Source: a virus. Taken from it: a stretch of DNA of 64,000 nt. A program made the position numbers and the translations under genes. Location: IMG/VR virus record IMGVR_UViG_3300049855_000609, positions 1 through 64,000 of that record; one strand, 5' to 3'. Of the stretch, positions 1,397-57,800 are shown one piece after another (the stretch's first letter is position 1; each line of letters starts with the position of its first letter). Under the pieces are notes generated by a model. The model was not told where the DNA came from. It saw nothing but the letters and a program-made list of their open reading frames with translations, and did no database searches.

Positions 1397-1572
1397 CAGA
1401 TAAGCCTGGAACAGACTCTCAGTTTTTTAAATTACACTTTGACAAAGATTATGGTCAGCTGGACTGTATTCTGTCCCAGAAAGTGAAGGTGATCTCAGAA
1501 CCAAAGAGGGGGGTGGAAGCTGATTTTCCAGTATCTGAGTTTTGGCCTGTACAAAGCTCCTTGGGATTATAA
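1393..1572 (+). CDS. Small hypothetical protein (59 aa)
   Basis: It starts MTDKPGTDSQFFKLHFDKDY at an ATG that overlaps the TGA of the gene before it, and ends LGL-TAA. It fills the otherwise empty gap between two genes and keeps the ATGA coupling seen along this operon, which supports it as a real gene. No domain is recognised. Confidence 0.6.
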   Translation: MTDKPGTDSQFFKLHFDKDYGQLDCILSQKVKVISEPKRGVEADFPVSEFWPVQSSLGL

Positions 1573-1596
1573 GGTAGAATTGATAAAAGATAAGAT

Positions 1597-3551: not shown

Positions 3552-3852
3552 GAACATAGGAAAGGTAAAGCAGAATTCCAAAGCGGATATACTTTTTAAG
3601 TACCTGGGAGAGAAGAGGGTGGCCAGGGACCCGGTGCACCGTGGGTGGAGGATAACCACGAGTTGTGGCTGCAGTTCTGCGAAGTGGGATCCACAGAAAG
3701 GGGAGTTGACGGTGAGTTATGGCTCCGGGGAGATACCCAAGCATCTGACGATGAAGGGGCAGACCAGTTATACTACGATCAAATATATCACGGTGAACTG
3801 GGAGGATGGCACTTCAGACAAGCTGAGCTTTACAGTGGAGGTTACAAAATAA
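3532..3852 (+). CDS. DUF1573-like protein
   Basis: 106 residues. The stretch FKYLG then WRITTSCGCSSAKWDPQKGE followed by LTVSYGS matches the DUF1573 hallmark: a beta-sandwich strand, a conserved SCGCT/S turn, then a Trp/Pro strand. DUF1573 proteins are common in Bacteroidota and are usually exported; here there is no clear signal peptide, only a short MWQETSKNIGK N-terminus. The gene precedes the M15 peptidase by 32 bp, so a surface or lysis-linked role is possible but unproven. Confidence 0.7.
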   Translation: MWQETSKNIGKVKQNSKADILFKYLGEKRVARDPVHRGWRITTSCGCSSAKWDPQKGELTVSYGSGEIPKHLTMKGQTSYTTIKYITVNWEDGTSDKLSFTVEVTK

Positions 3853-37966: not shown

Positions 37967-40378
37967 ATGGGAAGATTTTATAAAACCGCGATACCTGCTG
38001 ATACCATAGACTTTATGTATCAGCCTCCACTGGCCCTGGCTATGAAAGCCCAGGAATATAATGATCAGCAGATAGAAGAGCAGTACAAACAGCAACAGCT
38101 GATGAATGAGCACCTCATTCAGATCAAAAATCTTGCCCAGGATGATGAAATAGCAAAAGCAGAAATAGAAAAGTGGCAGAAAGGAATTGAGGCTTTGGCC
38201 GGGAATCTGAATAAAGATCCCCTGAACTGGAGAAAACAGAGTCCGATAATGGATACTGTTTCCAAGCAACTGGAGTATGATCTGACAAAAGGAAAGCTGG
38301 CCAGCATACAGGCTCAGTATGATACCCGCATGAATTTTGAAAAGAAGATGGATGAGGGTGTAAAGCTGTGGATGGAAGATCCAAAACATGAAAAGGGGAT
38401 TTCCCCGGAACAGAAAACCCACATGCTCAATTACTTTGATCAGCAGTACAAGCAAAAGGGGGGATTCAAATGGGACGACACCAAAAAGACAACTCTGAAT
38501 ACCTATCAGACAGAAGATCCTACAGCTTACATGGACATCAATAAAGTTCTCTCTGAGGCAGTAAAAGATTATAAACCTGATGAGTGGGAAAAAACCAGGG
38601 ATATTGAAACGGGAAAATGGATATACCGCAATAAAGTAAGCAATGAAAGTATTGAAGAAGAAAAGCTTTGGCTGACAGGATTGCAGTATGCTCAGTCAGA
38701 TCCTGCTTTTATGGCTTATCTGAAACAAGGCAGTAAAGTAGGATATGCACCAGGGTATTTTTATCCGGATGACTATGGAAAGGATGAAACAGATCCGGTT
38801 AAAAAAGCTGAAATGGAAAAGCTGGCCGGCACCATGATCAATCCGGTAAAAGTGGTGGAGACAGAAGTAGAGGATCCAAATGATCCTACTAAAAAGGTCA
38901 AGGTACAAAGCCTGGAACTCAACTACGAAACTCCCATGGCTAAAGCCTTATCTGCCATGTCTGACAGGGTAGGATACACTAAGACTGTAGACGATGTTAC
39001 CATACAACGGGCAAATGATTATGGCCTTGCCGGATATAACAGCAGTCTTAGAAAGTCTGAAAAACAGTTTGAACATGATCTGAAGATGCAGGAGCAGGAA
39101 GCAGAAGCTAAAGCAAAAGCTGAATTGGAAGCACAAACAGCTGCTGGTGATACTACAGGTACAGGATTAAGTCCCAATGTTTTAAGTCCTTCGGGTTATT
39201 CTTCTTCTTTAATGATAGGAGAGAAGTCGGTTCCTTTGGACAAAGAAGAACTGGATAAGCTGGAGGAGAACCTGGCAGTTGTAAATGGTATTTTGAAAAA
39301 AAATCCAAACAACCTGAATGCCAAATTCTTACAGGCCAGGTATATAACCCTGAAAGAGAACCTTAATGTGGCAGTATCTGAACAGATGAACCCTTCAGAA
39401 AGGAACTTATTTAACATGTATCAGAAAGAAGTTCTGAATCCCGGAATCCTGAAAACCTTTGGGAAGCCTACAGATACCAAGAACTACAATCCAAAGATAT
39501 GGAAGCCGGTAAACCTGGCTGTAGGAACAGTATGGGACCTTACAGATCTGGGAGAACAGTTACAAGATGTCGCGGAAAAATATGAGGACATTAAAAAAGA
39601 TGTAATAAAGAAAGAGAAAGAGAGCACCTATAACCAGAAAGTCTTTAACTTAGGGGATGATGAAGTTTCCACAAAAATGAAAACAGAGATCATGGCCCAG
39701 ATAGAGACTCCGGGAGATGTTGTTTTCATCAACTCTAAAGGAAAGCAGACCACTTTGAAACTGGATGCTAAAAAATGGGGAGGAGGAGAAACTAAAGATC
39801 TCAGTCTGATCACACCTTATCTGGTTCCTCAGACCTATTCTCCCCAAGCCGGAGAGCAGGCTTATGTATATTTGAAGTTTGATAAAAGCCTGGTACCTGA
39901 TGGAACCCGTATTGAAGATGCTGATGGGAATGACCTTAAAGACGGAGAGACATTTAAAGTGGAAGTAAACAGAAAAAATCTGAATCAAAAAATGATGAGC
40001 ATTTTAGGACCTGATGCTACTCCGGCACAAAAAGCTATATTTTACAGGACAGATCCTATCTTTAATAAGGCAGAGTATTTCGTTCACCAGGCTTTAGAAG
40101 AGAATCTGGGGAAAGAAGATCTTTCTGCACCAAAGGTAGCAGAAATAGTCCCAGGAGAGTTTGAGGTTTATATAAAAAATCTCAACGAACAGGGAGTTAC
40201 TTATGCCATATATGATATGACAACCGGGCAGTTTACTGATGAACAGACTGAAGTTACTACAACAGATGCCAATGGAAATATGTACAAAGCTAAGGATAAG
40301 TTCTCTGCTAAAATTACAGAGCTTTTATACAATGGTATTGAAGCCCATAAAGCTGTAGCAGCGAAAAAGAACAAGTAA
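37967..40378 (+). CDS. Large helical virion (cargo) protein
   Basis: 803 residues starting MGRFYKTAIPADTIDFMYQP, PPLALAMKAQEY, with a long Gln-rich coiled coil (residues about 25-130) and an overall charged helical profile. Residues about 375-400 are an Ala/Glu helix (MQEQEAEAKAKAELEAQTAA). The C-terminal half (about 530-790) is mixed alpha/beta. The N-terminal pattern and the position before the polymerase fit crAss cargo proteins that travel in the capsid and tail. Function beyond that is unknown. Confidence 0.72.
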   Translation: MGRFYKTAIPADTIDFMYQPPLALAMKAQEYNDQQIEEQYKQQQLMNEHLIQIKNLAQDDEIAKAEIEKWQKGIEALAGNLNKDPLNWRKQSPIMDTVSKQLEYDLTKGKLASIQAQYDTRMNFEKKMDEGVKLWMEDPKHEKGISPEQKTHMLNYFDQQYKQKGGFKWDDTKKTTLNTYQTEDPTAYMDINKVLSEAVKDYKPDEWEKTRDIETGKWIYRNKVSNESIEEEKLWLTGLQYAQSDPAFMAYLKQGSKVGYAPGYFYPDDYGKDETDPVKKAEMEKLAGTMINPVKVVETEVEDPNDPTKKVKVQSLELNYETPMAKALSAMSDRVGYTKTVDDVTIQRANDYGLAGYNSSLRKSEKQFEHDLKMQEQEAEAKAKAELEAQTAAGDTTGTGLSPNVLSPSGYSSSLMIGEKSVPLDKEELDKLEENLAVVNGILKKNPNNLNAKFLQARYITLKENLNVAVSEQMNPSERNLFNMYQKEVLNPGILKTFGKPTDTKNYNPKIWKPVNLAVGTVWDLTDLGEQLQDVAEKYEDIKKDVIKKEKESTYNQKVFNLGDDEVSTKMKTEIMAQIETPGDVVFINSKGKQTTLKLDAKKWGGGETKDLSLITPYLVPQTYSPQAGEQAYVYLKFDKSLVPDGTRIEDADGNDLKDGETFKVEVNRKNLNQKMMSILGPDATPAQKAIFYRTDPIFNKAEYFVHQALEENLGKEDLSAPKVAEIVPGEFEVYIKNLNEQGVTYAIYDMTTGQFTDEQTEVTTTDANGNMYKAKDKFSAKITELLYNGIEAHKAVAAKKNK

Positions 40379-40405: not shown

Positions 40406-43400
40406 ATGGCTGGTACTAAATCAGAAGTTGTAACCGAAAAAGGTCAGAAGACTGCAGTAGAGGTCATGAATGATCTGATGAAAGGGACTGCAGATACTCC
40501 AAAACCTGTAGTTAAAACAACAGAGCCTCCTGTACTAAGTGCAGTGGATGTAATGAATAAGCTGATGCGCGGAGAATCTGTAGAAGTAAAATCTCCGGCT
40601 ACTTCCGGTTTTCTTTCTGCTGATGCCCCGGTATCTACGTCTTCCACAGGGCATACTCCTGATCTCCAAAAGAAACTGGAGGAAGGAATGGATATCAGTA
40701 ACGACATAGACAACTACTACATAAATAAAGCCCATGACCAGTCTTTTGTAGAGCAGTCTTTACTGACTACGGGAAGAATGGTATCTAATTTTTTGTATGG
40801 AGCTGTATCAGCAGCAGGAAGTACTTTAGATATGATCGATACTCCTATGATGCTTACTGGGGTGATCAAAGAGTATGGTAATATCCTGGGAGATGCTGCT
40901 AAATCAGCACAAGAATGGGAAGAGGAGAAATATCCTATTTACAAAAAAGATCCAAATACAACCATCTTATCCGGAGGGTTACTGGATCCGGGATGGTGGG
41001 GAAATATTATGGTAGGGGTATCACACTCTGCCGGTATATGGGGAGAATCTGTGGCTGCAACTTTAGGTGCTGGAGCTTTGACTGGCCCTACAGGATATCT
41101 GGCCGGCATAGGAGCTGGAATAAAAGCTATGAAATCTGCAAAAGGGTTGAGTAATATCTTGAAAGTAGCCAAGAACAGTGACCAGATCCGGAGATCAATC
41201 ATGCTCTCTACTGCCCTTCGTGGTATGAATGAGCTTCAAATGGAAGGTGTGGACAGTTATCACCAGGTATATAAAGGGATGATAGATAAAGGCATGTCCC
41301 ATGAGGAAGCTGTCAAATATGCTTCTGTGGCTGCTGCTAATACTGCCAGGCTTAACTTGCCTAAGGTAGCTTTGGATCTATTGCAAGCCAAGCTCCTTTT
41401 GGTGAATCCCATGTCAGGATCCACAGAAGGACTTTTAGAAAGTTTTCTTGGCAAACTACCAACAAAAATAGGAACTCCAACAAAGTGGATTGCAAATATG
41501 GGTGGAGAGTCTTTTGAAGAATATTACCAGGCTATAGCTCAGAATGAAAGTGTGTATAAAGCAGAGATGATGGCCGGCTTAACTCCTAAAACCACTTTGG
41601 GAGAGAGACTTAAAAAATATAACCGGGATGGTAATACCTGGGATGCTGCTTTCAGTGGCGCCGTAGGTGGCCTGGTATTAGGTAAACTGCAACAGAGTTT
41701 CCAGAAATGGGGAGAAGGTAAAGGAATCAAGGATCTTCGTTCTGAGCAAGAGAAGTTTGTACAGAATATGTCTGCCGGCATGACCCTGGAAATGGTGGAA
41801 AAAATAAGCCAGGCTGTACAGGAAGGGAAGCCGGAGAAAGCAAAAGCCCTTTTAAGAGATCTTTCAGAACATAAGGCTATCACTGCTACACATCTGGATG
41901 CCCTCACGGATAGGGATACTGCCTTCAACTCTTATATGACCTACCTGGATAAGACCATAGAGGCCGCGGAAAAAGGGGATATGGATGCTTTAGAAGGGTT
42001 GATTGTACCAGGAATGGATCTGCAGGATGTAAAGGAAAGATTTAAGGTCTACCGGGAAGATGCTCTTGCAATCAAAGAGTTATACGACAACAATACAGAA
42101 AAACATTCCCGGGAAGCAGTAGTACCTATAACCCGGCTGGAGTATGACATTAAACGCCTGGGGGAAGAGCAAAAGACTTTTCCTGCAAGACTGGCTGCTG
42201 AAAAAGCCAATATAGCCGATTATGACAGCCTTTCTACTATTGGCAAGCAACTGTATGACCTGCATGCAGAAAGGGCAGCTAAGAGTGTAAAGGGGCTTCC
42301 TGTGGAAGATCTGACCCAAGCTATCAATACTTTAACCCAAACACTCACTCCTGAGCAAAAGGCCCAGGACCAGAAGATCCTCAATTCCATTTCCTGGAAT
42401 AATGGATATACCAGAACAGTAGATGCCCAGATAGCCAATCAAAAGGCTTTGGATAACAAAAGGGAAAACCTGATCCTGTGGAAAGACAGCAAGTACCAGG
42501 AGATGTCTGTGGAGCAGAAAGATGAAAAGCTTATCCGGGATGCAAAAAGTTTGAAAGAGCTGGATGCCATAAGAATAGCCTTGGCTACTCAAAAGAGGCT
42601 TACCCAGAATAAAAGGAATATGATAGGAGAGAAAAGGAAAAACCTTTTATTGGAAGAAAAAGACAAGCCTGCCAGTTTAACAGCTTCTCCTACGGTGCCG
42701 GCTTTTGTAGCAAACCCAGCTACCATTACTCCTTTGGCCCCTGATGCTTTTGATACAGCTAATACCACGAACTCTATCCCCTCTGTTGAAGATACTACGA
42801 CAACAGCTACAGCAATACCTTCTCCGTCACCGGCAAATACCTCCATGACACAACCTACTGTGGAAGAGTTAAGCGCCATATTGAACCAGGCTATTGAACA
42901 GGGAGTACAGGAAGAAGATGAAGATAGTGATGACATCTTTGATACTGATGCCATTCCTGAAAAGGAGTTCCGCGACAAAATGAAAACCCTGGTGAAAAAA
43001 AGGGTGGAGGAATTGACAGCAGAACTGGGACACAGACCAAGTTTCACGGAATTCTTCCAGGACTTTGTAGACAAGACCTCTGAGCAAAAAGGGGATCAGC
43101 ACTTTGAGGCTTTAAAAACTGCCTGGCTGGACAATGGATACCCTAAGGTCAACTTTGATGCTATCAGGAATGCCATATCCCGGTCCAAAGTCACTTTCAG
43201 TGAGTTGTTGGGAACACTGGATCAGCAATCAGGAGAAGTAGTACAACAGCCGGCTTCTCAGGAAGCTGCCGGAGTAGAGTCTGTGTTATATGATACCAAG
43301 CTTTATCCACTTCCGGAGGGCCACAAGAACAGGTACAAGATAGACGATTTTACAAAATATAAACCGGGGACTAAGTTGTCCATGGAAATGATGGAAGATC

Positions 43401-46400
43401 CGGGAGAAACCATCACTATCTGGGACCAGGAACAGCCACGGGAAGTATCCCTGGCTAAATGGGTAGCAGAGAGTGGGGGATCTACACAGGATTATGTGGA
43501 TGATGTTCCTATTTTGGTGAAAGATGAGTCCGGTGAACCTGTTGCCACCATTCCTCAGGTATCTTTTTTTAAACGAGAATCCTGGGGAAGGGATTTACCT
43601 GAATCCATCCGGGAAGCAAAAAGACAGGATGCCATAAACAATGTCCGCAAACTTCGAACAGAGTTATATGGTGCTCCCTATAAAAAGGTCAGCATAGAGA
43701 TCACAGAAAGGAATTACGGCACTATGCTTACTTTCCCCGGGAAGGAGAAAAGACAAGTAAGTAAAGCAGATCCTACAGCTCCTATAGGGGTGAAAAACTC
43801 CGGCCCCAGTTTCACTACTACAGAGGGGATCATATCCACAGACCAGATATATAATCCGGGCAACACCCTGAAAATATCAGATGGTCACAAATATGAGTTT
43901 CGTAAAATGGGGGAGAAAAATGGTAAACCATTCTATTGGGCACAAAGGGTGCACTATGGCAATATCAGCCAGCAGGAAGCCCAGTCTGTTTACTATGCCT
44001 GTGCTTCTTATATCTTCCAGGATATCAGCGCGGAGCAAAACCCTAAGGCCAAGGAATTGTCTCACAAAATAAAAGACAAAGTAAAAGCTGCAGGAGGAGA
44101 TGCCGGTATGAATATCCACTGGGTATCTAACCTGGAGACTTACATTTCCCAGTTTGTGGATCTGTCTAATTTGAGTATTGCAGATGATGAGGCTCTTTTG
44201 ATAGCTTTACATTCTACTGCAGATCCCAGCCTTTTTAAAACAGAAGAAGAAAAAGAACAAGCTAAAGCAAGAATAGGAAAACCTTATATCATCACCCAGC
44301 ATGGAACTATTTTATTTGGAAGGCTTGGACAACAGATACAGGTAGAACAGTATGATAGCAATGGAGTGAAAAAATGGGTTACTCTTTCTTACCTGGAGAA
44401 TAACATGAAACTGTTTAAGGTAAGGTCACAGGATACTGCCATACAGGTAAAGAACAAAGGCTTATTGCTGGAAGCTTTGCAGAGACTGTTAAATGATACT
44501 ACGGAAAACGGGTTTAAGCAGGGAATGACCAAAAAGGAAAACCATCTGAAATCAAAGATACCTGTTTCCCTGATATCCCGTTCTGCGAATAATGTGGTGG
44601 ATGTTACTACTTATACCGGAACTGATGGTAAAAGTGATTATGCTTCTTATCTGAAGGACACCATGTATACAGTACTGGATGCTGTCAATGTGGGAACAAA
44701 GGAAGAACCCCGGTTTGTCAGCATGGTGAATAATGAGATCAAATTCAAGGCTTTTGTTCCTGAGGAAGCCCGGTTAAAAGCTGTACAAAAAACAGAACAG
44801 GTGATTGCGGAAGAGGTAAAAACCCCTGAGGGTGTAGCAGACATGTTCACAGAGCAGTACATGAGGGACCATGGTTACTCTGAAGAAGCTATCAGAAAAT
44901 TTTTAAGCGGGGATAACTTATATGATGTAGACCTGGAGAACTACAAAAGGGTGACAGATGAGATGATGCAACGGGTCAAAAAAAGAATGACCTCCATATC
45001 TGATCTGGACTCTTCTGACCGGCAGGAGTTAATCAACTATATTTCTCGTCAGATAGAACAGCGCTTAGATGGAAAAAACAAAGAGGTGATCTCCCGGGAA
45101 GATACCATAGGAGAAGTCACCCACTCTTTTGAGAATATCATACAGCCTAAAATGGATTTCTGGAGATCGGAGGTCAAGAAGCTGAAAGAGATCCTGGCAG
45201 CTAACCCGGCTTCCACCAGACTTCAATACCTCATTGATGATATGGAGTTAAACATCCATAATGTCATGATGGTCAGAAAGCATTGGAAATCCCTGATGGA
45301 AGACGTAGAACTGGAGCTGGAAAGGAATATTAATCTGAAGATAAAGGATTTCTCCGAGGAGTCTTACTCTAAAACAGCCATGGAAAGAGATCCGAAAAGC
45401 TCTGTCAGGCTGATGGTAAAACGTTTTCTTTCCCGGATCCCAAGATATGAGAACGGATACCGGAAAATAGGCTTCCTTGGTGTAGAGTCTTATCCCGGAT
45501 TTGACTATTACTTTGATCTCTTGGGAGAAGTGCTTAGTCCTCAGGCTGCAGAACAAGAAGGCAAAGCTACCAATATCAGTGTCCGGGCAGAGTGGGATGA
45601 TATTATTGCGCGGTTAAAACAGAACCAGGAGAGGTATCCCTGGATAAAATATCTGTTGGAACAGCTGGAAACAGCTCCCCAGCAGTTGAAAATACAGTTT
45701 ACTGTGGGCCTTGCCGGTAAACACAATATCCACCCGGAGTTTGTAATGATCAGCAAACACGGAACTGGAGTGTATCTCAGAAGCTGGGAAACCAACTACT
45801 CAGATAAGGTAAAGGTAATACGCCGGCAGTGGGAAAGCAACTCCAAAGACATTGATCTGTTCACCTATTCTGATGGAGAATACCGTATTAACATTGACCA
45901 TGCCAAATATCTTTTGGGTCAATACCAGATGTTCCTGAAAAGAGGACTTCATAAACTGAAAGAAGCTCAGGAGTGGCTGTCAGAGTTTGGTATAAACCTG
46001 TCCATGGATGCCATGGAATTCCTTAAAACAGATGGGTACACTTTATTTGATGGGAGTACCCGGATGAGGATCAAGGACCTGTTCCCGCAAGCAGAAACAG
46101 AAAAGAATAAAACAGCTTTTTCCGAGACAAACAATATCTTTAAAAAGCTGGCCTCTGTGCTTACCCTGGCTATAGCAGCTAATGAAGCTAATCCGACAAG
46201 GGCACTTTCCATAAGAGAAAGAAAGGACCTGGACCCTTTTGCCGCGGCACATGGCCTCATAGGAAGGCTGGCTTCTGTAGAAGCAAGGTTTTCCCTGGTA
46301 GTATCACCAAATGCTTACAGGGACTCTGGAAAGAATATTTATGCCATTACCCAGAACAAACTGGCTTGTCAGCAGGTAGAAGATCTTATCCGTAATGATG

Positions 46401-49400
46401 AAAGTGGAAAGGCACTGATAGACAGTAAACTGGAGCAGGTATTTGATGGAAAATCCATGATCCTGAAGCTGATGAAGGAGTCTCCGGAATTTGCTAAAAG
46501 CTTCCAGATAAGCCACATCAGCCTGGAGGCCCTGAAAGAAGAAAGACGGGATTCTCCTTTTAACATGGAAGTCACCCGGTTATCAGATGCAGATAAGCAC
46601 ATGATGACTATGGGCTTCATGCAAAGCACTACCCAGGGTTCTATTATGGTCTCCGATGAGATGAAGAAGATCTTCATGGGTATCCCTGTAAGAATGGCCA
46701 GGATGCTTCTTCCTACTATGTCAGACAAAGAACTGATGCTGGAGGTGCTTACTGCTATTTTAGCTCCTAATTCCAATAATTTCCGGGATTTAGAAGGAAA
46801 TACAGGACTCAGTGATAACCTTCTTCGGCTAATGTACTCCCAAATGGTAGAGCCGGAGCTGGATAGGATCATAGACTATCATATCCGCAAGGCCAGGGGA
46901 GAACAGTTCAATCAAAAAGACTACGATAAAGCTGCCCAGATATTTCATTTTATCCCGGAAATGAATAATGTTACCCGGATGGTACATGGGCAAGAGGTCA
47001 GGGTGATAGAATATTTGCAGGCCAATGCACACAATATGACTGCAGAGGAGATAGCAAGGGAAAAACAGAGATTGCAAATAGCCTCTTACAGGAAGATGGA
47101 AGATGTAGTTACTGATGAGGTGACCAATGTAGTGCACAACTGGTTCAAATGGGGCTTTGCCGTACAGGAGAAAAATGGATCTGTTTCTTTCCCTTATATG
47201 GACAAGAACTATGTGAATGATGCCGGGTGGAAAGGTACCTCAGAGGAGAAGCTGATGCACTTTGCCTATGACTATGTGGTAAATAACATGCTGACCAATG
47301 CCAACCACTTCATGATGTTTGCCGGTGATGTAGCCAATTTTGGAAAGGCAAATGCCTTTAGCACCAAAGATTTCGAAGACGGGAATCCCACCAGGCCCTT
47401 AGGTGATGGCTCTGTTTACAGGATGAACAGTGAGAATATTATTGGCAGAAACGTAGGAAAAAGGTTGGCCATGCTGATTGCCCCCGGGGATCCCCTGTTC
47501 AACAGTGAAAATGACAATTACATACAACTGTTCCTGGAGGATGCTAAAGTAGTGGCCCCTAATGCAGAGTACATGATCGATCTGCACTATGAAGGTAAAA
47601 GGACAGATAAAGTAAACGAGCTTTTATACCAGGCCAGAAATGAAGATGACAAGAAAAAAAGTGCCGTGGAAACCTTGTCAAAAATGTTTCCGGACATAGC
47701 CAGTTTTTTCAGCATAGAAAATACAGACAGCCAGGAAATGATGACTGCCGGAGAAGCTTTGAATGTGGCTTACCGGAGAGGCAATCTTTCAGAAGAAAAA
47801 TATAAAGAGCTGAAAGGAAAGATAAGAAGACAAAGAGCTGCAGAAAAGGAAGGAAAACCTATAGCAAAAGCTGATTTCATTTCCCATGAGGATATCAACC
47901 TGGTATTCCAGCCACAGAAGCCGGTTTATACAGGATATAAAATGGAAAATGGCAGGACCCGGATGGTATACATCAAAACCTCTGCTATCTCTTTACTTCC
48001 CCAGTTGACCGGCGCTGATACCCAGCTGTATGGTCTCCGTAGAAAAATGGAGGAAATAGAGGACAGTTCAGGGAGAAATGTAAGGGCTGTTTATGTTTCC
48101 GGGGCCAAGATAGGTTCTCCACAGAAAGCCTTCTCTGTCTGGAAAGCAAATGGGGATTTTAAAGAAGATGCCATCAATGTGCAAAGTGTGGTAGACAACC
48201 TCAATAGTGGAAATCCGGACTCCGCACTTATTTTACCAAGAAAGTTTTTCCGCATACAACAAGATATACCATTTAAATCCCACTATAAAGAAGAAGACCT
48301 GACCAAGCTGGGTACACAGATGATGAAGACCATCTTCGGTAACGGAGTTTCAAAAATAAAAGAAAAAGTCTTCAGCTATAAAGGTGAGATGCTTTCAGGA
48401 GAAGAACTCTACAAGGAGTATAATAGCCTGATCGATACCTGGATAAAAACAGAAAAGACAAAACTTTACCGGGAACTGGGGGTAGATGAACTTACCGGAA
48501 AGCCAAAGAACATGAGAAAATTCTCTGAGAAGCTTCATTCTATGTTGTTGAAAGAGGCCCGGAAAAGAGATTATCCTTTACAGGATCAGCAGGCCCTGGG
48601 ACTGGATATAAAAAGAGATGACCTTACCGGAGAAGTTTTAGATGTCCGGTTTACCATTCCTTTGTGGCTGACACCTAACTCCAACAGATATGAGTCCCTG
48701 CTAAACTCTATTGTAGGCAACAGGATGCTGAACCTGGAACTCCCCGGGGTTGGTTTGGTTACAGCTTCCAGTCAGGGGTTTAAGTGGAAAGCTACTGATG
48801 ATCTTACAGATGTTCAGAATTTCTCCGACATCATCTGGAGGAAAACCCGGTTCAATGGAGAATTGAGGGCCTTTGATACTGATGCCGGCACTAAGGCACA
48901 GATACTGGTACCTTCTAAATTTCGTGGCAGAGATGGTAAGCTGATAGATCTTCTGGATCCAAAAAACGGATACTTTTATGAGGAAGGAGGAAGGAAATTT
49001 CTAAATGAAGACCGGATAAAGGCAGAGCTGCTGGAGTCTACCTCTTTCCGTATCCCTACTTCAGGACATGTGTCTATTGCTTCTGTAGAGATAGTCGGAT
49101 TTCTGCCTCCACAGAATGGGGATATTATGGTGGTGCCTCCTAACTTTCTTCCTCAAAAGGGACTTGACTTTGACGTAGATAAGGAATACCTGTACAACTT
49201 ATGGCATGCCCTGGATGAAGAGGACAATATTGTTTCCCTGGAAGACGGTATAAAGATGACCTACCAGGAAATAGAAATGCTGGAAAAGAACATCAATGAT
49301 CAGATAGAATCCATGCGGGACTATTACAAGGACAACCAGGAAATGCTCAATGAGATAGATGAATTGAAAACAGATCTGGAAGTCAGGAAGACCCTAAGCT

Positions 49401-52400
49401 TTGATGGAAAAGAGTCCAAGAAAGCTGTCCGGGAAATACACACCAAGATAAAAGAGCTGAAAGAAGAATTGCTTGTATTTGGCAATGAGGTATTGGATGA
49501 AAAAGTAGGTGGAAAATACTGGGAAGTAAATGATAACCTGAAAAAAGAGATCAAGAAAGCTTTGACCAAGCTGGCAGAAATGGAAGATTATAAAACCCAA
49601 TTTCTGCAAAATGACCTGGTTAGAGTATACAGCTCTGTTATGTCTACAAAGGACAAAAGAGTTCAAAGAAAGATAAACAAGGTGCTGTCTATGGATTTTG
49701 TCCGTGACCAGGCTTCTTATATTGAGCAGACAGCTACCGGGAAAAAGACCCAGTTCTCTATGCTGACTCCCGGATTTCAAACAGAAAAAATGAAACAGGG
49801 AGCTGCAGGAAACGGAACCATAGGTGTGTACTCCAACTTCCTGGTAGTACACGGCCTGTCTCAGCAGACAGAAGCTCCTTTGAGGCTGATGACCAAGATA
49901 TGGAATGAGGAAAAAGAGAAAATGGAAACGGTCCCTTACAGTCTTGTTATAGGAAAGTTCAAATCTGATGGTTACCTGGGCAGAGGTCTTACCCTGGATG
50001 GTGCAAGAGATGTCTCTTCTGTTTATGAAGAAAGACAACAGACCTCATTGGATAATGAGAATGAAGGTATTCTGGGCCGGGTAGGGGTAAGTATGAGTAC
50101 GATCAATGTAGACTGCATCCTGGTAGGACAAGGATATGACAGGGATACTTTTGAAATAGGGGACCTGACAGATGTGAATGTTCAGAAAGAGATCCAGAGT
50201 AATCCTTTTGGGGTAATTGAGAAAAATGGAAAAGCTTACAGAGAGGTCAGTATTCCTTACTTGCTTTTATCTCAGCCACTGGTTAAAAAATATATTCAGG
50301 AGGTACAGGATTCAAACTCCATTACCCGGGGATATGAAAAAAATAAAAAGAGAAAGATACTGGAAAAGCTGATAGAAGAGTATGGTGGACTGGAAAACTT
50401 CGAGCTGGCAAAAGAGGATCATATCCGGAGAATGCTTACCGGTGAGAACCTGGCCAGGAACCTGGAAGGGCTTACAGATAATATGGTACAGCTTTCCGCG
50501 CTGGGGATAGTGGAGGAAATAGAAAGACTGTTCTCCAGTTCTATGACCTCTTTACAGCAAAGATTGAATATACAGGGGAATGAGCTGGGTATTTCTAATC
50601 TGGAAGCCAGGCAGAAATACAAGAATCTCTTCAAGTTCAACAGCAACTTTCCTATCCAAAATGCTTCTAAGCTGGTAGGAGATTATCTGTCTAAAAAGAA
50701 AGCTGCCCAGTTACTTTCTACTGAAGCGGGTAAAGAGCTGATAAGAAAAAATGGATTTATCATCCTGGAGTCTCCTGTTCCTGGAGAAAGAGAGGTGGTA
50801 ATGAGGCCAACTTCATTCTCCGGTTCCCTGATGGTATATGCACCAATAGCCAACAAAGAGCTTTGGGATAATTTCTTTCCTTATAAGAGTGCTGTAGTGG
50901 AGGAGTCTGTTACTGCCCTGCTGAATATTTTCGGTGGTGTGAAAAAAGGATCAGACATCAGTGATAAATCCATACTGGATACCACTTACCTCATCATGGA
51001 AGAGATGAAAAAATACCTCAACTCCAGTGAGGATCTGGGTACTTTCTCCGGAGATCCACAAATGCAAAGGGCCAGGCTTACCATATCGGATGAGAATAAT
51101 GTCTCTTTACCTAAATACATGCGGGAATTATTCAGCATGAACAAAGAGGGCCTCTCCGTAGAAGAATCCAAGGGCCTTGACATGGTAAAAAACAATAAGG
51201 TCACCTCCCGGCTATTCTACAATTTTGATAAGGGAGCTCCTTCTACCCTGAAATTTGATAATAACCGCGGGGAAGACTCCAATGAGTCTTATAAATACCA
51301 GGCTATAGTGGAATTGCTGGAGAAGAATTTACCACTGCCGGCTTGGAATAAACAGCCTTATACTACCCGGCAGCTGGGCATAGACCTGATCAGCTATGCT
51401 TACCTGGAAGGAGGAGTGCAGAAAGCTATCCAGTACATCAAATACATTTCTATACCTGTTCTGGAAGAGATCGGGTATGCTACCACTTCCCGGAAATGGC
51501 AGGAAGCCATAGTCTATGGAGATGAGCATGTCATAGAAGGTCTTTTTGGTGGCCAGGGATATTACTCCAATCTGGCAAAGCAGGTGGTACAGCATAACCC
51601 CGGAAAGGTAAAATACCAGCTGACCAAAGAACAGATCACAAATACAAAGGATGTGGAAGGTAAACCTTCTGTGATCCTTGGAAATACAAACAGTTTTGTT
51701 CCGGAAGAGTTTTCCTTCATTGAAGATGATATGGTAGAACCTTATGCTACCATATACAATGAGCTGGGTACTGGCCGGGATAAGCTGATGCTCTTTCAAT
51801 GGGATATGGAAAACAGCCGGTATACCAGGATCCCTACTTTCAACTACTTTGGGATGAGCCAGTATTCCATGAAGACAAACCATGTGACTCCACTGACTGA
51901 AGTCAGATGGACACCGGTGAAGCCTTCTTCAGGACAGGTGCTGCCTACAGAAGATAATACAGATCGGTCTTCTTTATTTGAACTGGGTACCGGGGATGCT
52001 ATTAAGATCCTGGATGCCATTGCTAAAGCTGATTTTGGGACCACCTCTTTTCTGGCTTCTTATACGGCAGGTTTTGTAGACAAGACCCTCAAAATAGATA
52101 TAGTAGATGAGACTAAAGAGGGAGATACTCCTTTCAGAGCTGTCTACAATCCAAGCAGTAACACCCTCAGGATAAGCCGTAAATTCCTCAATAACCATAA
52201 ATATTCCCCGGAGGAAATAGCTTACACGATAATGGAGGAGATGCTCCACTCTGTTATGAGCAGGGAGTTGATCAAGTACTTTGATGCAAAAGGAAAACTC
52301 CTGGTCCCGGAACAGTATCTTCCTCCACATATACTCCGGTTACACCGGCTTTTACTGGAAACACAATCTTTCTTTGAAAAGATGCCACAGGAGCAAAGAG

Positions 52401-54859
52401 ATGCCCTTTTTGGAGATGATATTTCGAAGGAAACCCGGGATATGCATGAAAGAGAGCTGTTTGTTTACACGCTGGGTAACATACATGAGTTTGTAGCCAA
52501 GATCCTGGCTAAGCCTCATATTCGGGAAGCCATGTCAAAAGTGCCCTATAAGAAGACAAATATGAGCCTTTTGGAGAGGTTCTACCAGATCTTCCAGGAG
52601 TTCTTAGAGAAAGCCGGCATGAAGTTCGACAAGGATACAGTGGCTTTCCATGCTGTAGCAGAGATATTTTCCTGGCTGGAGCAGAACAATGGAGATACTG
52701 TACAAAGTAATTCTATACAGGAACAGGTAAAAACTGCTCTCAGTAACAGCATCCTGACAGTAGAACAGGAGCTGGAAAACCGGAGATTAGAAGCAGAAGA
52801 GTTCCGCAAGAGCCTGAAAGGGGCACAGCCTACAGTAAGACAGAAAAAGGAATTCATCGTTTCCAAGCTGGAAAATGGAGAGGAGATCTTAGGGACTATT
52901 CAGCAGGGGTTCAATGGAGGATATGATTTCGTGGACAAGAAAGGCTCCCGGGTAAGGTTCTATAATCACTCCGGGAATATTACCCAGGAAGATTACAATA
53001 AGACTGTGAGATTGGTACTGGCCCCTGAAGTGAAAGCTGAAGACGGGAAAGTTTTCCGTGATGTGATACAAGTATGGGCAGGGGATAAATTCTTTGGCAA
53101 TGTACAGGAAACAGACTGGAAAGAAACTCCTGCTGTTGATCTGCTTAAAAAAATAGATCTGATTGAAACCCGCATAGCTAATGGAACAGCTGATCCCCAG
53201 GAGTATAAGGATCTGGATGAATACCGGAAACAATTGGGTATGGCTCCCAGATATGGGATAACAGGAGCTAATTTTGAAACTCAAAGAGAGCAATTACCAA
53301 AAGATCCTACCGACAAACTAATCTATGTATTTGAAAAGCTGGGGAAGAAAAATGTAGATAAGATTCTGGAAGGCAGAGATGAAGATGGAAATGCTGATTA
53401 TTTGGTAGCTTATATTCCGGATAACATGACCAAAGAAGAATTTGAAAATACGGATCTTGATGAGTTTGAATTTGAAGATGCTACTTATGATACAATTATG
53501 CGTCTTTTAAAAGGAGTAAAAAAGTTTAACGGAACTGCAAGCTTTTATATAGAAGAGGCTATTTCTGACCCTGATAATTATAGGTCTATTGCTGCAGAAA
53601 ATTTTCTTTTACAGATAGCAGATAAAATAAATGAGATCAACCCAACCATACTAAACCCTGATCAAGGGAGTTTATTTGACCGGGCTTTACCTGAAAAAAG
53701 GGATGATTTCCTTTTTGATGTGGATATGCCTGAAATGGGGGCTGCCTTGGAGATCGTTTATGGTCAGTGGCCTGGATTGGAACAAGAACTCCCTAAAGAA
53801 AAGTATATGGAATGGGTTAACACTATCTGGCCGGACTCCTATGTGAAAAGGGTGGTCTATCATGGAACAGGTTCAGATATAGAAAAACTGGAACCTTCTC
53901 CTAATTCCGGGCTTATCTTCTTCGCGGCTAATCATGAATACAGTGCTGTTTACGCTGAGTGGAGAAAACAGAATTTGGAGCATGAAAAGTCTTGGAGGAA
54001 AGAAACTGCTAAAGTATATGACTTTTGGAATAAAGCTTTATTCCGGACAGATGTAGATGCTATTCCTGCACAAATGCTGGTGGATGAGACTATTGATGTT
54101 TTACTGAAATACAAGAAAGAAACTCCTGAACGGATATTCAAGGGCCTTTTTGGTGATCTTCCTTCTAATTTAGTTGAGTTACAAAAAGAGATCATAGAGA
54201 ACTACAATGAAAAGCAATTTATATGGGATAACGGGGATGAAGATGTTGCAGACTATGAGGACTATGTAGAGATGCAGGAAAGACAAAACTGGACAGAAGA
54301 ACAGTGGCAGGCTTCTTATATAGCAGAACAAAAAGAACTGGAAAAAGAGGCTTTTGTTTATCAAAGGGATAAGGAAGAAGTATACAGACTGATGAGAAAG
54401 AATTTCTATAAATTAGAAAATCAGATCAATGGCCCGGCATACAAGAAGGTAAAAAAATATTTTGAGGTTCCGGCAAAAGCTAAGGTGCTTCCTGTACTTT
54501 TAAATGTAAAAAACCCACAAATAATTGATGAAGAGATCACCACTTACAACATAACAAGTGGTATTATCCCTATAGATCCTGCAGCAGATGCCATAATAGG
54601 AAAGGATGCTCCTTTATATGCAGACTCTTTTACCGGCAAGGATTGGAAAGAAGAAGAGGTTTTTGTGATCAAGAACCCGGATCAGATATATTACTTAGGA
54701 TCCCCGGAGGATATAGCCATGGCCAAGCAGTTTGCTAATGGCAATAAATACATCTCCGTAAATGACCCTACTCTGTTCTCTGATAATGTGGAAGATGTGG
54801 CTGAAGAGGAAAAATTAAGCTGGAAAGACCGGGAAAATAAAACAGATTGTCCGTTTTAA
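40406..54859 (+). CDS. Giant virion RNA polymerase polyprotein with C-terminal ART domain
   Basis: 4817 residues in one frame. Residues 1-450 resemble an ejected internal protein with hydrophobic runs (AATLGAGALTGPTGYLAGIG near 215-240); 753-820 is a Pro/Thr linker. The RNA polymerase core centres on RIPTSGHVSIASVEIVGF (about 2882) and KGLDFDVDKEYLY, where D2921, D2923 and D2925 match the Mg-binding DxDxD of two-barrel polymerases. MKQGAAGNGTIGVYSNF (about 3130), YEERQQTSLDNENEG (about 3207) and LSQPLVKKY (about 3288) follow, as in crAss polymerases. Around 3944-3948 is a zincin-like helix, EEMLH. Residues about 4470-4790 are ADP-ribosyltransferase-like (VYHGT with H4486; LLNVKNPQIID; VFVIKNPDQI). 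Virion-carried polymerase for early transcription is the family role. Confidence 0.88.
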   Translation: MAGTKSEVVTEKGQKTAVEVMNDLMKGTADTPKPVVKTTEPPVLSAVDVMNKLMRGESVEVKSPATSGFLSADAPVSTSSTGHTPDLQKKLEEGMDISNDIDNYYINKAHDQSFVEQSLLTTGRMVSNFLYGAVSAAGSTLDMIDTPMMLTGVIKEYGNILGDAAKSAQEWEEEKYPIYKKDPNTTILSGGLLDPGWWGNIMVGVSHSAGIWGESVAATLGAGALTGPTGYLAGIGAGIKAMKSAKGLSNILKVAKNSDQIRRSIMLSTALRGMNELQMEGVDSYHQVYKGMIDKGMSHEEAVKYASVAAANTARLNLPKVALDLLQAKLLLVNPMSGSTEGLLESFLGKLPTKIGTPTKWIANMGGESFEEYYQAIAQNESVYKAEMMAGLTPKTTLGERLKKYNRDGNTWDAAFSGAVGGLVLGKLQQSFQKWGEGKGIKDLRSEQEKFVQNMSAGMTLEMVEKISQAVQEGKPEKAKALLRDLSEHKAITATHLDALTDRDTAFNSYMTYLDKTIEAAEKGDMDALEGLIVPGMDLQDVKERFKVYREDALAIKELYDNNTEKHSREAVVPITRLEYDIKRLGEEQKTFPARLAAEKANIADYDSLSTIGKQLYDLHAERAAKSVKGLPVEDLTQAINTLTQTLTPEQKAQDQKILNSISWNNGYTRTVDAQIANQKALDNKRENLILWKDSKYQEMSVEQKDEKLIRDAKSLKELDAIRIALATQKRLTQNKRNMIGEKRKNLLLEEKDKPASLTASPTVPAFVANPATITPLAPDAFDTANTTNSIPSVEDTTTTATAIPSPSPANTSMTQPTVEELSAILNQAIEQGVQEEDEDSDDIFDTDAIPEKEFRDKMKTLVKKRVEELTAELGHRPSFTEFFQDFVDKTSEQKGDQHFEALKTAWLDNGYPKVNFDAIRNAISRSKVTFSELLGTLDQQSGEVVQQPASQEAAGVESVLYDTKLYPLPEGHKNRYKIDDFTKYKPGTKLSMEMMEDPGETITIWDQEQPREVSLAKWVAESGGSTQDYVDDVPILVKDESGEPVATIPQVSFFKRESWGRDLPESIREAKRQDAINNVRKLRTELYGAPYKKVSIEITERNYGTMLTFPGKEKRQVSKADPTAPIGVKNSGPSFTTTEGIISTDQIYNPGNTLKISDGHKYEFRKMGEKNGKPFYWAQRVHYGNISQQEAQSVYYACASYIFQDISAEQNPKAKELSHKIKDKVKAAGGDAGMNIHWVSNLETYISQFVDLSNLSIADDEALLIALHSTADPSLFKTEEEKEQAKARIGKPYIITQHGTILFGRLGQQIQVEQYDSNGVKKWVTLSYLENNMKLFKVRSQDTAIQVKNKGLLLEALQRLLNDTTENGFKQGMTKKENHLKSKIPVSLISRSANNVVDVTTYTGTDGKSDYASYLKDTMYTVLDAVNVGTKEEPRFVSMVNNEIKFKAFVPEEARLKAVQKTEQVIAEEVKTPEGVADMFTEQYMRDHGYSEEAIRKFLSGDNLYDVDLENYKRVTDEMMQRVKKRMTSISDLDSSDRQELINYISRQIEQRLDGKNKEVISREDTIGEVTHSFENIIQPKMDFWRSEVKKLKEILAANPASTRLQYLIDDMELNIHNVMMVRKHWKSLMEDVELELERNINLKIKDFSEESYSKTAMERDPKSSVRLMVKRFLSRIPRYENGYRKIGFLGVESYPGFDYYFDLLGEVLSPQAAEQEGKATNISVRAEWDDIIARLKQNQERYPWIKYLLEQLETAPQQLKIQFTVGLAGKHNIHPEFVMISKHGTGVYLRSWETNYSDKVKVIRRQWESNSKDIDLFTYSDGEYRINIDHAKYLLGQYQMFLKRGLHKLKEAQEWLSEFGINLSMDAMEFLKTDGYTLFDGSTRMRIKDLFPQAETEKNKTAFSETNNIFKKLASVLTLAIAANEANPTRALSIRERKDLDPFAAAHGLIGRLASVEARFSLVVSPNAYRDSGKNIYAITQNKLACQQVEDLIRNDESGKALIDSKLEQVFDGKSMILKLMKESPEFAKSFQISHISLEALKEERRDSPFNMEVTRLSDADKHMMTMGFMQSTTQGSIMVSDEMKKIFMGIPVRMARMLLPTMSDKELMLEVLTAILAPNSNNFRDLEGNTGLSDNLLRLMYSQMVEPELDRIIDYHIRKARGEQFNQKDYDKAAQIFHFIPEMNNVTRMVHGQEVRVIEYLQANAHNMTAEEIAREKQRLQIASYRKMEDVVTDEVTNVVHNWFKWGFAVQEKNGSVSFPYMDKNYVNDAGWKGTSEEKLMHFAYDYVVNNMLTNANHFMMFAGDVANFGKANAFSTKDFEDGNPTRPLGDGSVYRMNSENIIGRNVGKRLAMLIAPGDPLFNSENDNYIQLFLEDAKVVAPNAEYMIDLHYEGKRTDKVNELLYQARNEDDKKKSAVETLSKMFPDIASFFSIENTDSQEMMTAGEALNVAYRRGNLSEEKYKELKGKIRRQRAAEKEGKPIAKADFISHEDINLVFQPQKPVYTGYKMENGRTRMVYIKTSAISLLPQLTGADTQLYGLRRKMEEIEDSSGRNVRAVYVSGAKIGSPQKAFSVWKANGDFKEDAINVQSVVDNLNSGNPDSALILPRKFFRIQQDIPFKSHYKEEDLTKLGTQMMKTIFGNGVSKIKEKVFSYKGEMLSGEELYKEYNSLIDTWIKTEKTKLYRELGVDELTGKPKNMRKFSEKLHSMLLKEARKRDYPLQDQQALGLDIKRDDLTGEVLDVRFTIPLWLTPNSNRYESLLNSIVGNRMLNLELPGVGLVTASSQGFKWKATDDLTDVQNFSDIIWRKTRFNGELRAFDTDAGTKAQILVPSKFRGRDGKLIDLLDPKNGYFYEEGGRKFLNEDRIKAELLESTSFRIPTSGHVSIASVEIVGFLPPQNGDIMVVPPNFLPQKGLDFDVDKEYLYNLWHALDEEDNIVSLEDGIKMTYQEIEMLEKNINDQIESMRDYYKDNQEMLNEIDELKTDLEVRKTLSFDGKESKKAVREIHTKIKELKEELLVFGNEVLDEKVGGKYWEVNDNLKKEIKKALTKLAEMEDYKTQFLQNDLVRVYSSVMSTKDKRVQRKINKVLSMDFVRDQASYIEQTATGKKTQFSMLTPGFQTEKMKQGAAGNGTIGVYSNFLVVHGLSQQTEAPLRLMTKIWNEEKEKMETVPYSLVIGKFKSDGYLGRGLTLDGARDVSSVYEERQQTSLDNENEGILGRVGVSMSTINVDCILVGQGYDRDTFEIGDLTDVNVQKEIQSNPFGVIEKNGKAYREVSIPYLLLSQPLVKKYIQEVQDSNSITRGYEKNKKRKILEKLIEEYGGLENFELAKEDHIRRMLTGENLARNLEGLTDNMVQLSALGIVEEIERLFSSSMTSLQQRLNIQGNELGISNLEARQKYKNLFKFNSNFPIQNASKLVGDYLSKKKAAQLLSTEAGKELIRKNGFIILESPVPGEREVVMRPTSFSGSLMVYAPIANKELWDNFFPYKSAVVEESVTALLNIFGGVKKGSDISDKSILDTTYLIMEEMKKYLNSSEDLGTFSGDPQMQRARLTISDENNVSLPKYMRELFSMNKEGLSVEESKGLDMVKNNKVTSRLFYNFDKGAPSTLKFDNNRGEDSNESYKYQAIVELLEKNLPLPAWNKQPYTTRQLGIDLISYAYLEGGVQKAIQYIKYISIPVLEEIGYATTSRKWQEAIVYGDEHVIEGLFGGQGYYSNLAKQVVQHNPGKVKYQLTKEQITNTKDVEGKPSVILGNTNSFVPEEFSFIEDDMVEPYATIYNELGTGRDKLMLFQWDMENSRYTRIPTFNYFGMSQYSMKTNHVTPLTEVRWTPVKPSSGQVLPTEDNTDRSSLFELGTGDAIKILDAIAKADFGTTSFLASYTAGFVDKTLKIDIVDETKEGDTPFRAVYNPSSNTLRISRKFLNNHKYSPEEIAYTIMEEMLHSVMSRELIKYFDAKGKLLVPEQYLPPHILRLHRLLLETQSFFEKMPQEQRDALFGDDISKETRDMHERELFVYTLGNIHEFVAKILAKPHIREAMSKVPYKKTNMSLLERFYQIFQEFLEKAGMKFDKDTVAFHAVAEIFSWLEQNNGDTVQSNSIQEQVKTALSNSILTVEQELENRRLEAEEFRKSLKGAQPTVRQKKEFIVSKLENGEEILGTIQQGFNGGYDFVDKKGSRVRFYNHSGNITQEDYNKTVRLVLAPEVKAEDGKVFRDVIQVWAGDKFFGNVQETDWKETPAVDLLKKIDLIETRIANGTADPQEYKDLDEYRKQLGMAPRYGITGANFETQREQLPKDPTDKLIYVFEKLGKKNVDKILEGRDEDGNADYLVAYIPDNMTKEEFENTDLDEFEFEDATYDTIMRLLKGVKKFNGTASFYIEEAISDPDNYRSIAAENFLLQIADKINEINPTILNPDQGSLFDRALPEKRDDFLFDVDMPEMGAALEIVYGQWPGLEQELPKEKYMEWVNTIWPDSYVKRVVYHGTGSDIEKLEPSPNSGLIFFAANHEYSAVYAEWRKQNLEHEKSWRKETAKVYDFWNKALFRTDVDAIPAQMLVDETIDVLLKYKKETPERIFKGLFGDLPSNLVELQKEIIENYNEKQFIWDNGDEDVADYEDYVEMQERQNWTEEQWQASYIAEQKELEKEAFVYQRDKEEVYRLMRKNFYKLENQINGPAYKKVKKYFEVPAKAKVLPVLLNVKNPQIIDEEITTYNITSGIIPIDPAADAIIGKDAPLYADSFTGKDWKEEEVFVIKNPDQIYYLGSPEDIAMAKQFANGNKYISVNDPTLFSDNVEDVAEEEKLSWKDRENKTDCPF

Positions 54860-54875
54860 CCATTAAATTTGAACC

Positions 54876-57800
54876 ATGAGTACAGATTGCGGAGGAAGAA
54901 AATTACCCTTTAAAACAGCAGAAGCTAATGCTAAATCCTGGATGAGATCCGAGGGTTTTATCAATAATTTTTTGGAGATCACAGCAGCCCCGGAGGAAAA
55001 AGAAAAGGAGTTTTTCCGGATAGCAGAGAGCCTTAAAAAACAAGGGATTCAGAAGTATGGCATTCTGACAGACTGGGTATACATGGCCGGCCAGGGGAAG
55101 ATAACTGTAAACCGCGAGGCTTTTAAAGCTGCAGATGTACTCAATGGGGTTATCTATAATAACGAAGTAGATCCTTCTAAATACCTGGATTCCCGCAAAG
55201 ATCAGAACCTCTATGATGTGGATGATGAGAACTTTTTTCAGGCCCAGGATACTCCCCAGGATGACTTTGATATAGAAAGTACCACAGACACCAATATCAG
55301 GGCCAGCCTTCCCCGGTTATTACAGTTAAAGGAAAAGCTTGCTGCTATAATAAGAAGGGAAATAGCTGAGATGAACAGCATCATGGAGAATTTCAAGGAA
55401 GACAAGGAGGTTTATACCAAAGCTTTGAAGAGAAGAGGAGAGCTTCAAAAGAAGCTGGATGGGACTGTTATTGTAAACTCCCTGGGAATAGATCCGGTGA
55501 TAGAAAAGGGTTTGCTCAAAGAAATAGAAGAACTGAAAGCCTGGAACAGCCATGATCCGGCAATGTTTGGGCCCATGATAGAGTCTGAACTGCACAGGCT
55601 GGAAAAGATCATGGAACATGACCTGGACTCTTCCGAGAAAATAGAAGAAGCCAACCTGATCATTGATTTTGTTCTTGCCATGAATAACTTTGACCGGCAG
55701 TTTGTGGAGAAGGATAACCATCCTATCTATCATGCCGGAGAATTGTATGTAGGGGAAACCCTGGTGCTGACAGATACTGACCGGGAATACTATGCCAGGT
55801 GGGCTGTAAGGGCTTATGAAGCCAAGAGTAAACTATTCAGTGCGGAAAAGAGAGAAATAGAAAGAAGGGTGAACTCTGATGTAAATGTCCAAAAGATGTT
55901 TGACGGAAAGCAGTTTACTTTTGAAGAGATCACAGAACTGAAAGATGGGTTAAAAGATATAGACTGGATATCCAGTGCCGTGCTGGATATCACTTCCGGG
56001 TATATGACCCATAATGGTATGCTGCCCCATGTAATGCTGAAAATGCTCTCTGATGCCCTGGCAGATGCCCAGATAGAGCAGAGGGCTTTGGAAGAAACCC
56101 TGGACCAGACAGTAGAAAAGGCACAGGAAGTGCTTTCCAGTAAGAAATTTGAAGGAGGAAAGTATCGATTAGCTTCCCTGGGTATCATTGGAATAAAAGG
56201 GGTTTCCTGGAGCCTGTACTGGCAAGAAGGAGAAAATGGCCTGCGGACAGGTTTTCTGGTAAACAAACTTTCATCCAAATGGATGAACCTTCAGGAAGAA
56301 ATAGAAAAGAAATACAGGAAGATGACCTATGGTCCAAAGACAAAAGCAGAGCTGGACCTGGCTAATAAAAAGAGAAATGACTGGCTGACAGAAAACGCCA
56401 AGCTCATCCAGTCTTCTTTGCTCCCGGAGATCAGGGATGAAGTATTCAAAGTCCCTCCTGCCGGCCAGGAAAATCCCCTGGCTGTTCTTCAGAAATATTT
56501 TCAGGCACCGGATAACCAGCAAAAAGCAACCCAGCATAAAGCAGAGCTGATATCCATTATAGGAGAAGAATATTATAAGGAAAGAGTAGAAAAACAAAAA
56601 GAATTACTCTTGGAATTTGTCACCCAGAGGGAGATCTTCATAGAAAGTAAGCTAAAAGAATATGCTATTCCAGCAGGGGCCACAGAACAGGACCTGAGAA
56701 ATCTTTATCCGGATCTGGACAAAGCCATCAATTTCTGGGAAGCAAAATATGATCCTTTTATTGCAGAAGAGTACTCTAAGACAGGATATCCTTCCAGTAA
56801 GGCTGCCGGACAAAACCACTCTTTCCACTCTTATTATACCTATAACCAGCATATTCCTCTCCGGCATAAGCCGGATGCCTCAGGAAGTATGGTGGAAACA
56901 GGTTTTTACGATAATAACTTTGAGCTGATAGAAAATAATCAAGCTCTGCTGGATTTTTACCGGGTAGCCAGAAAGTGGGCCACTACTATGAGAAATAACT
57001 TTGGCCTGGGTATCAAAAAGATGTTGCCGGAAGGCTTTATCCCTTTTATGGAAAGGACCCTGGGAGAGCAGATATGGAACTCCGGAGAGGTATCTGAAAT
57101 GCTCACTCTGGCAGGAAAAATAAAAGCAATCTATACCCATGTATTTGATTATTTGAAAATGGGTATGGGAGTGAGGGAAGAAGATACTTTTGACTATGCG
57201 GAGAGAGATCCGTTGACGGGAAAGAAAACTTACAAAATAAACGACACCTTTATAAAACAAAGCCGGAAGAAAACAGAAAATGCCTTTGCTTTGAACCAGG
57301 CTGTTTTTGTAAAGAATTATAAAGGACTACGCGGAAGAGATTATCTGGGGCTTATAAAAAGGAACTCAAAAAGAATGGTTTACATAGACCATCCGGATCC
57401 TAAATTCAATAATGCGGATGCCATGGCACAGCTTATCTCTCCTTACCTGGGACTGGAGACTCCTCTTACGGGGAAAGAGCTGATAGAAAGATATGGGGTA
57501 CTGGAAGACAGGGATAGGTCAGGAGCCATGAAAGCTACTATACCCTTAGGAGAGATCCTTTATGATTTTTCCCAGCACCAGGTAGTACAGGAACAGTCTT
57601 TTGATTTACCGAAGATCATCCGTTTTTATGGTAAAGCAGCTGCAGATTATAAAGCCCGGACAACAGTGTTACCCACTCTGGCCTTTATGAAAAGGTATTA
57701 TGAAGAGATCAATGATATTGAGACCACGAATACCGGGGAGCAGAAAAAAGGGAATTTCCGGGGAAGAGAAAAGCCTATTACCCGGGGTTTCAGAAAAAAT

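Follow-up and report, generated by a model that had tools for sequence, protein, structure and literature searches.

Phages must pass folded enzymes of several hundred kDa through a narrow tail in the proper order, by means that are still debated. In the 64,000-nucleotide stretch of viral DNA analyzed here (the window, taken from a 92.6-kb virus record), a sequence-only reading had described one gene as an uninterrupted frame of 4817 codons in which a crAss-like virion RNA polymerase (RNAP) is fused to other effector-like domains. Inspection of the frame agrees: the ORF at 40406-54859 (+) starts with ATG and runs for 4817 codons without interruption (Table 1). Some relatives encode equivalent parts as separate ORFs, as would be expected if an assembly artefact had fused separate genes. 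However, independent metagenome contigs yield about 30 complete relatives (4027-5388 aa) with the fused frame, and the window ORF is colinear with gp33 (4401 aa) of the cultured Flavobacterium phage Fpv1. Because independent contigs and cultured Fpv phages alike carry an equivalent giant gene, the assembly error that the earlier reading had allowed for is excluded, its probability being negligible. A family for the giant ORF already exists as phrog_16227 (PHROGs, 'virion structural protein', 4401 residues). DNA-level searches and single-sequence pattern scans recovered few or no relatives, and a single-sequence phmmer search of the giant protein against the PDB gave no significant match, so that profile and fold searches were needed. 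A 6505-aa fused RNAP ORF (L079:476-19990; L numbers denote loci), with a single Cys as its penultimate residue, sits in a MAG binned as Neisseriaceae and probably belongs to a misbinned phage contig.

Table 1. Coordinates of the features discussed for the window; residue numbers refer to the encoded protein.
Feature	Positions	Strand	Basis
Crassvirus muzzle protein	28786..33651	+	PF25731, 76.2 bits vs cut-off 27
Cargo-type protein (Fpv1 gp31-like), no Cys	35896..37965	+	Similarity to Fpv1
Cargo-type protein (Fpv1 gp32-like), no Cys	37967..40378	+	Similarity to Fpv1
Giant fused cargo protein AB, 4817 aa	40406..54859	+	gp47-like A protein, catalytic virion RNAP (B) and accessory domains at the C-terminus
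A-type N-terminal cargo domain, aa 102-560	40709..42085	+	hhalign to Intestiviridae A protein (p-crAss gp45 82-586), prob 99.5, E 5e-23
crAss-type single-chain RNA polymerase, aa 1654-3828	45365..51889	+	hhalign to phi14:2/crAss001 RNAP 220-2107, prob 100, E 2e-85
Probable first (beta-like) double-psi beta-barrel segment, aa 2503-2575 (KPVYTG...VYIK...GAKIG)	47912..48130	+	Conserved positions
RIPTSGHVS element and DFDVD catalytic triad, aa 2882-2925	49049..49180	+	Sequence
SprT-like zincin, aa 3909-4086	52130..52663	+	Profile comparison (hhalign); model pLDDT ~85
Divergent ADP-ribosyltransferase-like (ART-PolyVal) domain, aa 4465-4782	53798..54751	+	Pfam PF18760 E 0.0026; ~160-aa insertion splits domain
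Codon for Cys4815, third residue from C-terminus (...TDCPF)	54848..54850	+	AB has 4 Cys in all
Cargo protein C (gp49/gp076-like), 1666 aa	54876..59876	+	BLASTP to Fpv1 gp34, itself matching crAss001 gp49; C-family HMM
Codon for Cys5 of protein C (MSTDC...), sole Cys of protein C	54888..54890	+	Sequence

Profile comparison identifies the giant ORF as a fusion of an A protein (gp47-like, residues 1 to ~1480) with the catalytic virion RNAP, B (residues ~1480-3830). BLASTP searches with the giant protein match crAss001 gp50 and phi14:2 gp077, and an AlphaFold model of residues 2085-3275 (pLDDT 74) finds 6VR4 as its best Foldseek match (E 1e-29), followed by a weak second match to QDE-1 (E 0.003). 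The modeled fold matches the QDE-1-like two-barrel architecture of crAss-like virion RNAPs, and from these two matches residues 2503-2575 would probably be a segment of the first double-psi beta-barrel. The DxDxD motif of the beta-prime-like barrel is present as DFDVD at residue 2921 (nt 49166-49180), with RIPTSGHVS upstream at residue 2882 (nt 49049), and its catalytic aspartates are invariant across 17 relatives. The earlier identification of DFDVD with an upstream beta-prime-like element, and of a crAss-type virion RNAP inside a longer polypeptide, is therefore borne out; phi14:2 gp66, put there at about 2200 residues, has 2180 aa. Ahead of the polymerase, a 400-residue hydrophobic region of ejection type had been proposed. 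The hydrophobicity is only mild, with a mean hydropathy near 0 at residues 201-400 and no 19-residue window there above 1.4; a membrane-spanning N-terminal region was rejected, as no transmembrane segment was found. The ejection-cargo assignment held, since the region is homologous to the N-terminal domain of crAss A proteins. A further match, of residues 107-224 to phi14:2 gp078 (hhalign prob 93), is weaker than that to p-crAss gp45.

The domains that follow the polymerase do lie outside it, as had been claimed, for phi14:2 gp66 aligns only to residues 1654-3828 by hhalign. The first of them is a SprT-like zincin, a domain that other crassviruses carry within A (p-crAss gp45) or C (phi14:2 gp076). 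The HExxH zinc site of SprT-like peptidases reads EEMLH in the window copy, in which E4028 is kept. Because the first His, a zinc ligand, has been lost, the window zincin is probably inactive and not a protease. HExxH is present in 17 of 18 relatives and reads EELVH in L037, so Glu replaces the first His in two members, L037 and the window. Further downstream, the ART-like domain is homologous to the ART of L059 (BLASTP 1.5e-7, HMM 1.4e-16), and ART domains occupy an equivalent position in related phages. However, its match to ART-PolyVal (PF18760) scores 19.0 against a curated cut-off of 31.2 bits. The model of the C-terminal tail (pLDDT 55) gave no significant fold match and is too poor to use, so the ART assignment is drawn from sequence. 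In the gut crassvirus cr55_1 (Suoliviridae), by contrast, the C protein includes an ART-PolyVal domain that does clear the Pfam cut-off (L074:22134-28157; E 5.9e-10).

Past residue ~4093, most family members end within 58-95 aa, and some carry long tails: the ART-like domain in the window, an SF1 helicase in L030, L045 and L065, DUF7831 in L045, and an ART in L059 and L056. The SF1 helicase domains behind the polymerase consist of AAA_30 and UvrD_C_2. The zincin and ART are thus passengers that differ between lineages, and the position after the polymerase is a variable passenger site. Given the ART, helicase and DUF7831 tails, 'effector-like' is a fair description, yet the tails vary by lineage and the window ART is divergent.

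The sequence-only reading had gone further and suggested one injected single-chain machine for membrane passage, transcription and host modification. One ORF does join an A-domain, an RNAP and an ART-like tail, and ART, SF1 helicase and DUF7831 passengers recur among relatives. However, the part assigned to membrane passage contains no transmembrane segment, the tail varies by lineage and is absent from the closest cultured relatives, and the machine extends to a second cargo polypeptide, encoded at 54876-59876. Host modification fares little better: the window ART-like domain may modify host proteins and is homologous to ARTs in related phages, but it falls below the curated cut-off and carries a large insertion, and the zincin has lost a ligand. 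We therefore regard a single-chain machine of this kind as improbable.

The second polypeptide, protein C, belongs to a conserved setting. Window and Fpv1 share the gene order muzzle, cargo genes, giant ORF and 1666-aa ORF; the muzzle gene (28786-33651) encodes a muzzle protein with the crass fold that marks Crassvirales, and the terminase, portal and major head genes of the window strongly match PHROG families. The NCBI taxonomy lists the Fpv group as unplaced. Inspection of the two neighboring cargo proteins reveals that Cys4815 near the C-terminus of AB faces Cys5 of C, while no Cys occurs in the first 12 residues of AB or the last 12 of C. This conforms to a rule in which an upstream cargo polypeptide (A, B or C) ends in Cys and the next member begins with Cys; that is to say, junction ends carry Cys and free ends do not.

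We surveyed the rule at about 80 loci, a sample that takes in Steigviridae, Intestiviridae, Suoliviridae and the Fpv group. For scoring family membership, the terminal 40 residues were removed from both the query and the C-family profile, and two loci with visibly broken frames (L017 and L038) were excluded from the junction counts. Cys lies within 12 residues of the end at 57/57 junction N-ends and 57/57 junction C-ends, compared with 0/38 free C-ends (Fisher 2e-27) and 0/36 free N-ends; because the sequences are related, the Fisher values overstate independence, and changes on the tree are the fairer count. At a Cys frequency of 0.06%, 54 of the 66 distinct RNAP-block ORFs have a Cys among their last three residues. 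The sole Cys of Fpv1 gp33 (4401 aa) is its penultimate residue, that of phi14:2 gp078 its last, and that of crAss001 gp47 stands at -3. Apart from the Cys itself, the Cys-bearing ends have little sequence in common. Two predictions set beforehand, that the next polypeptide starts with Cys and that both ends of a split gain Cys, held, as did the rule in all four loci found later (L079-L082, genome_contigs).

A few proteins require comment. The apparent exception, crAss002 gp33 (L070:14088-26825), has its Cys at residue 35; an in-frame internal MSC start at residue 33 fits the rule, and the annotation has probably set the start 32 codons upstream of the true one. The distant L007 fits only if an internal start is likewise assumed. 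Two distant DFDVD RNAPs of 2109-2235 aa (L004:5747-12451 and L006:6023-12349) are Cys-rich and have no terminal Cys; no A or C neighbors were detected for either, and they are possibly not virion cargo. Separately, an Intestiviridae cargo protein that is C1-like by gene position carries a single near-C-terminal Cys (L069:2870-5443, L070:3393-5066, L071:2950-5223), and no matching N-terminal Cys was found in its neighbors. A literature search for terminal cysteines in crAss RNAPs returned nothing relevant; an earlier mention in the primary RNAP papers is possible, and the rule at polymerase-chain junctions is apparently unreported so far.

To understand whether the rule follows gene arrangement, we mapped fusions and splits onto a polymerase-core tree, which has at least seven arrangement changes. 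Two clades, both with full support, acquired the B-C fusion separately (Intestiviridae; L081/L048), and A-B fusion is found in two others (Suoliviridae, Fpv). With a slash for each junction, the rule holds for A/B/C (Steigviridae), A/BC (Intestiviridae, where BC has no Cys at its C-end), AB/C (Suoliviridae, Fpv group) and the split form Ab/b'/C. Among split relatives, ORF1 ends in ...KKC(D/E), ORF2 begins with M-A-C or M-S-C and ends in ...LLICGK, and C begins with MxxxC. Because this split clade falls within a group of fused relatives (L055, L045), each with a C-terminal Cys only, a new Cys pair was gained at the new junction, on new end segments of ~48 and ~56 aa. Descent alone would not explain such a pattern. 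The polymerase split falls between the two barrel halves, and a ferritin-like gene (157-166 aa) lies exactly in the split at 14/14 loci (L051, L052, L054, L056-L063, L065, L067, L068), with PF00210 at E 7e-17 in L065 (L065:11017-11517). A group I intron in the same ~490-nt gap was considered and rejected, with no Rfam match and the gap occupied by the ferritin-like gene. The rule is also obeyed in crAss001 and DAC15, where gene A is on the opposite strand. As it holds across strands and with a ferritin-like gene between the halves, it acts at the protein level, and translational coupling or overlapping stop and start codons are rejected as its source.

Mass spectrometry identified A, B and C of phi14:2 as virion proteins, and gp47, gp49 and gp50 of crAss001, all called RNAP-associated, were likewise found packaged (PMC10172136). 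Crassvirus virions contain inter-protein disulfides, including in tail proteins, and tail constrictions of <50 Å require partial unfolding of the cargo (PMC10172136). We propose, at a probability of about 0.58, that the window protein is an A+B virion RNAP that is packaged in the head, ejected N-terminus first, coupled head-to-tail by disulfide to C, and released by reduction in the host. AB would be the leading car of a two-car cargo train, entering A-domain first and transcribing early genes. Cys4815, on a tail predicted to be disordered (the last ~40 residues of the AB model have pLDDT <50), would pair with Cys5 of C. In the oxidizing virion, outside the cell, the cargo would form a single covalent chain, A~B~C, passing the narrow tail; the string would keep the order and make all parts follow, and the reducing host cytoplasm would cut the disulfides and free the parts. 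We infer the disulfide, the ejection order and the redox release from the rule itself; the scarcity of other cysteines fits avoidance of wrong bonds, and the chain agrees with the published proposal that crAss001 gp45 is ejected in the N-to-C direction (PMC10172136). Native chemical ligation is an unlikely means of joining the ends, because the Cys sits at position 3-6 and is not exposed by Met removal.

Several points speak against a disulfide chain. As virions assemble in reducing cytoplasm, the bonds would have to form late; the cargo is multi-copy, so wrong pairings such as A-A are possible; and there are additional cysteines in gut-family B and C proteins, besides the unpaired Cys of the Intestiviridae cargo protein. 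Two other readings of the cysteines were weighed. In one, the pairs would bond adjacent subunits of the folded RNAP holoenzyme or mark where these touch closely, with A, B and C assembling in the virion or after entry, and would have no role in ordered threading; this fits the position of the pairs exactly at subunit junctions, their loss upon fusion, and the RNAP-associated status of all three crAss001 proteins. This is unlikely, though less so than the single-chain machine: the Cys lies on a poorly modeled tail, and the enzyme works in host cytosol, which is reducing. Alternatively, each terminal Cys might separately anchor its protein to another virion component (portal, ring or scaffold), the N/C pairing being incidental. 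The dissimilar Cys-bearing ends, the disulfides of crassvirus tail proteins and the unpaired Cys of the C1-like protein would all suit separate anchors. Anchoring needs no complementary ends, however, and a new split gains Cys on both ends while free ends never have it, which makes this the most doubtful reading of the three. That free ends lack Cys is better accounted for by a disulfide chain than by either of these two readings.

Extended beyond the window, the disulfide chain would mean that all crassviruses deliver their RNAP cargo as one covalent chain, by peptide bond if fused and by disulfide where split, so ordering the threading until host reduction undoes it. We hold this extension tentatively, at slightly worse than even odds. 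Crassviruses are the dominant human gut viruses, and an invariant junction Cys pair that disappears when polypeptides fuse and returns when they split suggests a specific mechanism, a redox-released cargo train. The mechanism is testable with existing virions and possibly with existing data, as the crAss001 study analyzed both reduced and non-reduced virion samples by mass spectrometry (PMC10172136). The rule can also serve as a sequence signature when unannotated phages are searched for virion-cargo chains.

Comparison with known systems places the window closest to the Fpv phages. Fpv1 gp33 and its FpV relatives (Fipvunavirus; phrog_16227) have a colinear giant AB in an equivalent gene order, with a terminal Cys on AB (at -2 in Fpv1) and an N-terminal Cys on C (Cys3 in Fpv1). 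In contrast to the window protein, to which it is 28% identical, Fpv1 gp33 keeps an intact HExxH zincin and has no ART tail. The polymerase of phi14:2 (gp66, gp077 in KC821624; PDB 6VR4), with DFDID at 1361 and Cys at both ends, corresponds to the RNAP part of the window protein, but is a separate polypeptide, with A (gp078) and C (gp076) as separate genes. Bacteroides phage crAss001 likewise obeys the rule with its virion-packaged RNAP-block cargo gp47, gp50 and gp49, here as three polypeptides with A on the opposite strand. In p-crAssphage (Carjivirus), KP06_gp44/gp45 include a giant fused RNAP and an A protein with a zincin and a C-terminal Cys; the fusion is B+C rather than A+B, and GenBank labels KP06_gp44 'RNAP catalytic subunit fused to unknown RNAP subunit'. 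The virion RNAP of N4 is T7-like, unlike the window polymerase. The N4-type giant vRNAP and the tape-measure-fused RNAP of P23-45 resemble the window protein in being giant virion RNAPs that enter together with ejection or tail proteins, the latter differing from the window in its location in the tail tape measure (PMC12633501, PMC10770324). Giant crAss RNAPs are well documented, as are multidomain transcription blocks (PMC7886860, PMC10136315), with sizes up to ~6000 aa given in review (PMC10136315). In Suoliviridae, Intestiviridae and the Fpv group, A-B or B-C fusions of 4000-5400 aa are the norm. A giant fused crAss RNAP is thus already known by itself, and the surprise of this locus is the terminal-Cys rule.
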